Source: a bacterium
Lineage (GTDB): Bacteria > Myxococcota_A > UBA9160 > UBA4427
DNA: 64,000 nucleotides
Direction: 5' to 3'
NCBI GenBank assembly: GCA_024742285.1
Contig: JANSYR010000006.1
Span: 248,001-312,000 of the forward strand
The notes below the pieces were generated by a model. The model worked only from the letters and a program-made list of their open reading frames with translations, was not told the origin of the DNA and searched no databases. Within the stretch, counting starts at the first letter, position 1. Each line of letters opens with the position of its first letter. The translations under genes were made by a program, and so were the position numbers. This document shows positions 19,658-21,870 of this stretch, one piece after another.

Positions 19658-20479
19658 CTACTGCCCGATGACCTCGTCCATCAGGCGGCGATTCGGGATC
19701 GACCACTTCGACTCCCCGTCCCGGAACGTCGTCGCGATCGGCCCGATCTGGTCGACGACGCCCCGGCGCCCGTCGACCTCGACCGCCTCGCCTTCGGGCA
19801 GGGTCTGCCGGAGATAGTGGCCCGCCAGGATGGCGGTCACGATGTCCCGGGAGCCGAGGGCGAAGGAGAGGCCCATGCCGGCGGTGATCGCGGCGACGGT
19901 CACGGTGATCACCGTGATCAGGATCTGGGTATCGACCCCGAGCTGCTCGAGGGTCACGACGACGACCATCACGACGATGCTCGTCTGGGCGACGGCCCCG
20001 AGACCCTTCGCGTAGGACAGGCCCGCGGCGCTCGCGGCGGAGGTCACGACGTTTCCGATGAAGCGCGCGAGGAAGACGCCGGCGGCGAGGACCAGCGCGG
20101 CGGAGATCACGCTCGGGATGTAGCCGAGGATCCGGGTGATCGCGGAGGTGACCGCGTGGAGGCCGACGATCTCGGCGGCGCCCATGACGAAGAGGATCAG
20201 GATCAGCCAGTAGGCGAGGCCACCGACGATCTGGGAGGGCTGGGCGCTGATCGAGGCCCGCTCGAGGGCCTCCATCAAGCCGGAGCGCTCGAGCAGGGCA
20301 TCGAGGGAGACCTGGATGGAACGCACGAGAACCGCACGGACGAGCTTTGCGATCAGCCAGCCGAGCATGAAGACGGCGAACGCGCCGACCGCCTTGGGCA
20401 GGAACTCGATCGCCGAGGCCGCCACGCCGTTCAGCATGTCGACGAGCAGGGTCTGGATCTCGGAAAACTGTTCATTCAT
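19658..20479 (-). CDS. Short MscS-type mechanosensitive channel with conserved TM-helix repeat
   Basis: About 273 residues, inner-membrane. An N-terminal TM helix block (EFLPKAVGAFAVFMLGWLIAKLV) and several further hydrophobic segments correspond to conserved TM-helix repeats, then the pore-lining helix AITAGMGLSFALGSRDIV, then the MscS beta domain (GEAVEVDGRRGVVDQIG, WSIPNRRLMDEVIG). The protein stops directly after the beta domain, so the C-terminal alpha/beta cage of E. coli MscS is absent. ATG at 20479 with GGAG upstream; the start overlaps the stop of the preceding small gene by eight bases, indicating coupled translation in the sigma-factor operon. Confidence 0.88.
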   Translation of the reverse strand: MNEQFSEIQTLLVDMLNGVAASAIEFLPKAVGAFAVFMLGWLIAKLVRAVLVRSIQVSLDALLERSGLMEALERASISAQPSQIVGGLAYWLILILFVMGAAEIVGLHAVTSAITRILGYIPSVISAALVLAAGVFLARFIGNVVTSAASAAGLSYAKGLGAVAQTSIVVMVVVVTLEQLGVDTQILITVITVTVAAITAGMGLSFALGSRDIVTAILAGHYLRQTLPEGEAVEVDGRRGVVDQIGPIATTFRDGESKWSIPNRRLMDEVIGQ

Positions 20480-20786
20480 CGGGGTCACTCCGATCGTGGG
20501 TTCGCGTTCGCGGCGCGCCCATCGACTGCGGCGGCGAGAGCGGATCGTGGCCGAAGAAGGCCGCCAGCAGGTCGAGGAGGGGCGCGCAGAAGCGCATGAG
20601 GAAGACGAAGGTCGTGAGGTCGATCAGGTCGCGGCTCGTGAGCTCGGCCTGGACCTTGCGGATGGTCTGGTCGTCGAGGGTCTCGGGCGGTGCGGGTCGG
20701 TCGCCTTCGAGACTTCCGAGCAGATCGCGGACGAAGTCCTCGTCGGAATCGAAGTCGAAGGGCTCACGGCGGTCGTCGTTCGACAT
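20472..20786 (-). CDS. Small protein of unknown function after ECF sigma gene, possible anti-sigma or membrane partner
   Basis: 104 residues. An acidic N-terminus (FDFDSDEDFVRDLLGSLE) is followed by a Pro-rich linker, the motif LDDQTIRKVQAEL and a moderately hydrophobic helix (TFVFLMRFCAPLLDLLAAFFG) that may touch or cross the membrane. It starts two bases after the sigma-factor stop and overlaps the MscS start. The central part, LL-x-P-PP-TIR(K/R)V-x-DL-x-L-x-T, is repeated in the 75-residue protein encoded upstream of the sigma factor, so the two are paralogues. A role in holding or recruiting the sigma factor is inferred from position only. Confidence 0.8.
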   Translation of the reverse strand: MSNDDRREPFDFDSDEDFVRDLLGSLEGDRPAPPETLDDQTIRKVQAELTSRDLIDLTTFVFLMRFCAPLLDLLAAFFGHDPLSPPQSMGAPRTRTHDRSDPDE

Positions 20787-20788
20787 CG

Positions 20789-21550
20789 CTACGCCCCTCC
20801 CCTGCGCTTGCGACCGAAGGCGGCCGCCTCGCCGCCGACGCGCGCTTCGTAGAGCGCCTTCAGCTTCTTCGTGCCGCGCGAGACGCGCATCTTGACCGCC
20901 GACTCGGACAGGTCGAGCTCCCGGGCCAGCTCCGGGTAGCTGTACCCCTCCACGTAGCGTAGGAGGAGCGGCACGCGGGTGCCCGGATCGAGCGCGTCGA
21001 GGAGCTCGAGGACGAGCTTGCGGAGCGCGACGTCCGGCGCCTCGGGTCGCTCCGGCGGCGGCGCCTGCTCCTCGGCCGCCTTGCGCTTGCGCTGCTCGCT
21101 GGCGCGCTTGCGGAGCACCATCCGACAGGCGTTCAGGGTGACGGTGTTCAGCCAGTGGACGAAGGGGCGCTCGAAGCGGAACCGAGGCAGGTTGCGGAAG
21201 ACCGCGAGGAAGACGTCCTGGACGGCCTCCTCGGCGTCGGCGGTCGAGCGGAGGATCCCGTACGAACGCGCGTAGACTCGACCCGAGTGTTTGCGCACCA
21301 GCTCGTTGTAGGCCGAAGTGCCGTAGGGCAGCTCCGCCTGGGCCTGCTCCACGAGCTCGCGATCGGGGTCTCCCTCCTGCCCCTGCAGGTCGTCCTCGCT
21401 CACAATCGCCGCCCTGCTCTCCCGTCCCACGAAGCTCGCCGTTCGCGTTCGCTCGACGATCGTCGCACGCCCCGCGCGGGGGCGCGCGAGCGATTCGCGA
21501 TCACGAATCTTGCCGCTCCCGCCGCCCGGACGCACCGCCATCGTGACCAT
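20789..21550 (-). CDS. RNA polymerase sigma factor, ECF subfamily
   Basis: Sigma-70 ECF factor. Region 2 is seen in YNELVRKHSGRVYARSYGI and ADAEEAVQDVFLAVFRNLPRF, region 4 in YVEGYSYPELARELDLSESAVKMRVSR, a complete helix-turn-helix. Between them lies a Glu/Lys/Pro-rich linker. Two starts are possible. ATG at 21550 has GGAGA seven bases upstream but adds a 49-residue basic extension and overlaps the upstream gene by 50 bases. GTG at 21403 gives a 204-residue protein, the usual ECF length. The operon order is small protein, sigma factor, small protein, MscS-type channel, which suggests an envelope or osmotic stress response. Its own promoter specificity is unknown. Confidence 0.92.
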   Translation of the reverse strand: MVTMAVRPGGGSGKIRDRESLARPRAGRATIVERTRTASFVGRESRAAIVSEDDLQGQEGDPDRELVEQAQAELPYGTSAYNELVRKHSGRVYARSYGILRSTADAEEAVQDVFLAVFRNLPRFRFERPFVHWLNTVTLNACRMVLRKRASEQRKRKAAEEQAPPPERPEAPDVALRKLVLELLDALDPGTRVPLLLRYVEGYSYPELARELDLSESAVKMRVSRGTKKLKALYEARVGGEAAAFGRKRRGGA

Positions 21551-21728
21551 TCGCCGATCTCCAGAGCCCCTCGAGGGTGACCAGACGAAGCAGATCTCCT
21601 ACGAGAATCCAGTTTCGGACTCTACGAATCGTTCGCGCGGCGAGGTCGGAGGGCGGCTGCGGAGCGTCCCGCGAGGCCTCCTGCCTGAGCAGTCCTTCGA
21701 TCTCGTCCGACGCCGATCCCTCGTCCAT
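21501..21728 (-). CDS. Small protein of unknown function preceding ECF sigma gene
   Basis: 75 residues if started at ATG 21728, which has GGGGGG upstream; an ATG at 21740 lacks a ribosome-binding site. Contains DEIEGLLRQEASRD, a PQPP linker, the motif ARTIRRVRNW and a hydrophobic segment (ILVGDLLRLVTLEGLW), then a hydrophilic tail. Sequence and layout parallel the 104-residue protein on the other side of the sigma gene. It overlaps or abuts the sigma factor start, depending on which start is used. No known family recognised; an anti-sigma or regulator role is a guess from position. Confidence 0.7.
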   Translation of the reverse strand: MDEGSASDEIEGLLRQEASRDAPQPPSDLAARTIRRVRNWILVGDLLRLVTLEGLWRSANGHDGGASGRRERQDS

Positions 21729-21870
21729 CGCACCCCCCATCTGTCGGGAGGGGAAATGCGGGGGCGTAACAAAGCGTCACCGCCCCCCGCTCCCGGTCGG
21801 CCGCCGGCGGTTCGGCGCGGCGCGGCGGCGCAAGGCGGGATCAGGCCTCGGCGCGGCGGCGAAGGCGGGC

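Follow-up and report, generated by a model that had tools for sequence, protein, structure and literature searches.

At the level of sequence, we show here that genes for an ECF sigma factor, a small protein (B) and a CmpX-type channel protein (M) form a triad, that this triad is accompanied by a promoter-like motif of fixed spacing, GTGACG-N15-GCATT, and that the motif links the triad to genes for mechanosensitive channels. In our reading, which we regard as evenly poised, the locus would be a membrane-tension module (osmotic or envelope stress) built on the ECF sigma factor, with B as its anti-sigma factor and M as its sensor. The features lie in the window, which is the whole stretch of 64,000 nucleotides that was analysed, and are as follows.

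21755-21780, minus strand: promoter-like motif GTGACG-N15-GCATT (blocks 21780-21775 and 21759-21755), upstream of A
21501-21728, minus strand: small protein A, 75 aa (ORF call; alternative start 21740)
20789-21403, minus strand: ECF sigma factor, 204 aa (probable start GTG at 21403; ORF open to 21550)
20472-20786, minus strand: small protein B, 104 aa (ORF call; one membrane-type helix) FVFLMRFCAPLLDLLAAFF
19658-20479, minus strand: CmpX-type MscS-like protein M, 273 aa (ORF call; lacks the C-terminal MscS domain)

The ORF calls bear out the four minus-strand genes of the preliminary description, in the operon order A, sigma, B, M. The genes had been described as lying nearly without gaps, which holds for sigma and B (gap of 2 nt) and for B and M (overlap of 8 nt), but not for A and sigma. 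These are spaced by ∼97 nt, since the conserved part of the sigma orthologues begins at the equivalent of the GTG at 21403. The neighbors in the window are metabolic genes: upstream lies a member of the aldolase_II family, downstream an amidohydrolase gene.

The neighborhood is conserved in relatives. Sigma, B and M are found side by side and in one order in at least eight genomes of one class (G000, which is the genome of the window, and G003, G007, G025, G039, G053, G305 and G334), and G305 carries an additional, divergent second triad. Every complete triad has B in the middle, with sigma and M on either side, and the triad M proteins are 61–95% identical. A search of 379 genomes of the phylum returned 11 with a match to A or B, one of them marginal. 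A itself stands first in the operon only in G000, G003 and G025; in G039, an A-like gene follows M. Incomplete loci are also seen. In G313, B and M sit together at the edge of a contig, which ends before a sigma gene could be seen, and G033 retains of the triad no more than the final 52 codons of M. In G027 (L084, G027:C135), the end of sigma region 4 runs into B in a single frame, and M was not found nearby; a deletion within a triad probably left this remnant. The search of plasmids for triad parts gave weak sigma and channel matches at most, and no SigX relatives were found on viral contigs. A contig scan with the N-terminus of SigX joined to B as the query (SigX patterns only) returned Pseudomonas loci and no named B relatives.

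Several of the genes adjoining the triads encode channels, transporters or envelope proteins. MscL adjoins the triad in G039 and G334, a full MscS adjoins that of G053, an ion channel that of G007, and the Mg transporter MgtE that of G305; OmpA-type proteins, peptidoglycan-binding proteins and DUF4332 proteins are further neighbors in relatives. In G039, G305 and G334, DUF4332 genes turn up repeatedly, either next to a triad or downstream of the motif (L022:5261-5737, minus strand; L079:6174-6581, plus strand; L128). The second triad of G305 has a divergent neighbor, the gene for the c-di-AMP synthase CdaA (L081:3109-4296, minus strand), which hints that osmotic control by c-di-AMP may be connected with the triad.

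The promoter-like motif emerged from a two-block Gibbs search of eight triad upstream regions, in which it scored 91, compared with 82–85 in four shuffled sets. Upstream of the triads it is exact in four genomes (G000, G003, G007 and G025) and nearly so in two more (G053 and G305), and the spacer sequences between its blocks have diverged between genomes. On the opposite strand of divergent triad regions, the motif precedes MscS (G053), MscL (G334) and DUF4332 (G305). Genome-wide, the eight triad genomes contain 42 matches with a spacing of 15, versus 7, 9, 10, 7, 7 and 18 matches for spacings of 12, 13, 14, 16, 17 and 18, respectively. The excess over the mean of these other spacings (9.7) has a Poisson p of ∼1e-14; codon periodicity may underlie the count at 18, which is larger than those at the other five. 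Among the relatives, exact matches average 5.8 per genome in the six triad genomes versus ∼1.9 in the 55 others. Gene-caller counts of intragenic motif positions were not used, as start codons are often chosen too far upstream. These observations make it quite likely that the triad sigma factor reads GTGACG-N15-GCATT.

The motif leads from the triad to channel genes elsewhere in the same genomes. An exact copy precedes MscS in G000 (G000:C6:214305-214330, 55 kb from the triad) and in G003, G025, G007 and G053. We compared genomes with and without the triad in a paired test that took the best MscS match from each of 30 genomes. The motif is present with zero mismatches in 5/5 triad genomes, 62–144 nt before the aligned region, whereas 0/23 genomes without the triad have an exact copy, their best sites carrying 2–5 mismatches; in two genomes with decayed triad remnants there are 3 mismatches. 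The Fisher p for 5/5 versus 0/23 is 1e-5, with two qualifications: close orthology among three of the five makes the MscS cases non-independent, and the G053 MscS has its upstream region in common with a triad used in motif discovery. A related site, GTGACG-N16-GCATT, lies at G000:C16:107009-107035 (minus strand), ∼120 nt upstream of the second MscS gene of the same genome (G000:C16:106126-106890). In G022, where no triad was detected, the motif remains intact at an MscS pseudogene that contains a stop codon in frame (L156, G022:C58:73140-73477).

Exact copies are also found before the tandem PF05552 channels of G007, G039 and G053 and before MscL in G334. MscL in G003, G007 and G053 lacks the motif, which rules it out as a universal target. 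Further exact copies precede genes for PBP1a (G000 and G003), a BrkB/YihY-type membrane protein (G000), PG_binding_1 proteins (G039 and G053) and DUF481 proteins (G053 and G334). Outside the triad operons, 9/38 exact matches in triad genomes are at channel genes, versus 1/30 in genomes without the triad, where the single case is the MscS pseudogene of G022; the enrichment test, which was run with 9/40, gives p 0.02. From this pattern of sites, we infer that the motif-bearing genes form a putative envelope-tension regulon. The role in membrane tension suggested in the preliminary description thus fits the conservation of the triad and the motif that ties sigma to mechanosensitive channel genes, but the part of it that makes M the sensor is an inference.

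M resembles channels of the CmpX type. It matches PF05552 with 58.8 bits, scores 13.1 bits against PF00924 (below the 20.2 cutoff) and has no match to PF21082, the MS_channel_3rd C-terminal domain, in the Pfam search. With Pseudomonas CmpX it shares 37% identity over 215 aa, and the two align end to end with identical domain layouts, both lacking the C-terminal domain. By fold, M matches MscS structures in the PDB with a TM of ∼0.3. Rather than the full MscS layout (transmembrane helices, beta domain and C-terminal domain), it has that of the cage-less PF05552 channels, with helices, about 275 aa and an end after the beta-like domain. By its domains, M belongs to the CmpX channel family, although in the channel tree CmpX does not cluster specifically with M. 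The absence of the C-terminal cage, which the preliminary description took to fit a sensor, is confirmed. It is weak as evidence for sensing, however, because the whole CmpX-type family has the trait, including members for which no neighboring sigma gene was found; indeed, none was seen beside CmpX-type channels 38–45% identical to M.

How might these parts work together? B, made directly after sigma, would hold sigma inactive at the membrane, and M would sit with B, change state under tension and free sigma. Free sigma would then transcribe its own operon and MscS from GTGACG-N15-GCATT promoters and, in relatives, may also target MscL, the tandem PF05552 channels, and peptidoglycan-binding and outer-membrane proteins; PBP1a, which likewise carries the motif, would be a further candidate. 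We favor a membrane-held sigma freed by M because the B gene directly follows sigma and overlaps M, and because B has a helix of the membrane type. That M is a sensor rather than merely a target is a tentative proposal, to which we give somewhat less than even weight.

Indeed, M may be a regulon member only. B would still be the anti-sigma factor, but another signal, such as proteolysis of B or a change in membrane order, would free sigma, and M would be one relief channel of several. MscS, MscL and the tandem PF05552 channels are all predicted targets to which no sensor role is assigned, and the operon itself carries the motif, so that M is a predicted target too. Moreover, overexpression of cmpX in P. 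aeruginosa left the expression of sigX and cfrX unchanged (PMC10965496). We nevertheless consider this explanation unlikely, since M alone among the channels is fixed directly after B in all complete triads, with the 8-nt overlap seen in the window.

The proposal that M frees a membrane-held sigma depends on B, and B is best described together with A. The preliminary description had noted that the two small proteins share several elements in the same order. This likeness is real: profile–profile comparison (hhalign) gives a score of 72, a probability of 98% and an E value of 1e-13, compared with a maximum score of 19 among 150 column-shuffled alignments. One of the shared elements had to be corrected, the motif being DLxxLxT and not DLxLxT. 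A and B are true paralogues. Neither has a match in Pfam or NCBIfam, in agreement with the earlier remark that they do not resemble a known anti-sigma factor; likewise, no relatives of A or B were found in the PDB and no fold match was found for B. In six B orthologues, the 19-residue hydropathy reaches 1.97–2.29, as expected for a membrane-type helix, and the AlphaFold model of B shows helices at residues 11–26 and 38–77 with modest confidence (pLDDT 68). A looks soluble, with a hydropathy peak of ∼1.0 or less. It is also the least constrained part of the locus because its dN/dS between G000 and the congener G003 is 0.53, as against 0.06 for sigma, 0.06–0.10 for B and 0.09 for M. A probably represents a soluble, optional duplicate of B. 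The two small proteins had been proposed to act as a two-part anti-sigma system; given that A is absent or displaced in most triads and is only weakly constrained (dN/dS ∼0.5), we reject this as a general design.

B alone remains as the candidate anti-sigma or coupling protein. It occupies the usual gene position of an anti-sigma factor and has a membrane-type helix, but no anti-sigma domain is recognizable in it by Pfam or NCBIfam. On these grounds, we rate it slightly better than even that B is an anti-sigma factor. An improbable alternative makes B an auxiliary subunit or chaperone of M, with sigma activity governed mainly by how much sigma is made or by a regulator encoded elsewhere. The overlap of the B and M genes, the hydrophobic character of B, the missing anti-sigma domain and the B-M pair of G313 (where the contig ends before a sigma gene could be seen) would all be consistent with such a partnership. 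However, where a CmpX-type channel has no sigma gene next to it, no B-like gene was seen there either, which argues that B tracks sigma as well as M.

The assignment of the motif to the triad sigma factor was weighed against the possibility that it is the motif of another sigma factor, such as the paralogue L103 of the same genome, which is 45% identical to the triad sigma, and that the triad sigma has other targets. The PBP1a sites (L120, L148 and L161) occur in G000 and G003 but also in G005, where no triad was found, and in G004 the motif precedes an unnamed gene, again with no triad found. Given G005 and G004, a second sigma factor may share the motif. That the motif belongs to another factor altogether is quite improbable, as the MscS copy tracks the triad in the paired test, and in the decayed cases either the remnant of the triad still has the motif with it (G033) or the gene behind the motif has itself become a pseudogene (G022).

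The sigma factor itself matches Sigma70_r2 (PF04542) with 50.0 bits and Sigma70_r4_2 (PF08281) with 55.4 bits, both above the cutoff, and no region 3 match was found in the Pfam search; it thus has the ECF layout of regions 2 and 4 without region 3. It is 33% identical to SigX and, in a small tree, clusters with SigX and one paralogue of its own genome (support 86/93). Against the SigX equivalog model NF007222, it scores 79.5 bits, below the cutoff of 194, whereas P. aeruginosa SigX scores 381.7 bits. The triad sigma factor is therefore not a SigX equivalog. Comparison of A/B with three near-identical Pseudomonas CfrX sequences gives an hhalign score of 10.3, and 57/150 shuffles score as high. 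That the locus is a genuine SigX (ECF102) family member, its CfrX and CmpX orthologues merely reshuffled, is very unlikely, since for all the likeness in the three kinds of part, in the lengths of small protein and channel, in the overlap of cfrX and cmpX and in the clustering of sigma with SigX, sigma falls far below the NF007222 cutoff, A/B match CfrX no better than shuffled alignments do, CmpX does not cluster with M, and the gene order is unlike.

The locus bears on how, and whether, bacteria convert membrane tension into transcription via mechanosensitive proteins. It could be such a relay, in which a mechanosensitive channel-type protein would act, by way of a small protein anchored in the membrane, on an ECF sigma factor in charge of wall synthesis and of relief channels (MscS, MscL and tandem PF05552); the relay would be distinct from SigX-CfrX and have a promoter code of its own, GTGACG-N15-GCATT. 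Taken as a whole, this chain is possible but on balance doubtful. What the locus contributes is a lineage that is probably separate, together with a defined promoter motif and a predicted regulon in which mechanosensitive channels abound. Because the motif is defined and the predicted regulon is rich in channels, the idea is testable with a reporter and three small genes.

Among known systems, the locus recalls those with a membrane-bound anti-sigma factor, such as RpoE-RseA, in that the gene for a membrane-type protein directly follows the sigma gene. It differs in that B, in which no anti-sigma domain is recognized, has too little length to include a periplasmic sensor domain, and in that a channel gene comes next. 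With the MscS family, M shares PF05552 helices, an MscS-like end domain and MscS fold matches, but it lacks MS_channel_3rd and is placed in a regulatory operon. The closest parallel is Pseudomonas SigX (ECF102), described as a "mechanosensing" ECF system with the small putative anti-sigma factor CfrX and the channel CmpX (PMC8999054, PMC7641640) and called the sole studied case of its kind (PMC8999054). In the cmaX-cfrX-cmpX-sigX-oprF neighborhood, as here, an ECF sigma factor, a small protein suspected of regulation and a CmpX-type channel occur together, the genes for the small protein and the channel overlap (cfrX-cmpX and B-M), and the channels are of the same length and lack the C-terminal domain; in some relatives, Mg transporter and OmpA-type genes neighbor the triad as they do near Pseudomonas sigX. 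There are also differences. The order in the window is A-sigma-B-M rather than cfrX-cmpX-sigX-oprF, the hydrophobic helix of B is stronger than that of CfrX (2.0–2.3 versus 1.15), and the locus has a second paralogue, A. The publications consulted describe neither the promoter motif nor the channel regulon for SigX and say that its consensus is not precisely defined. On our best reading, the locus resembles SigX-CfrX-CmpX in kind but probably differs from it in lineage.
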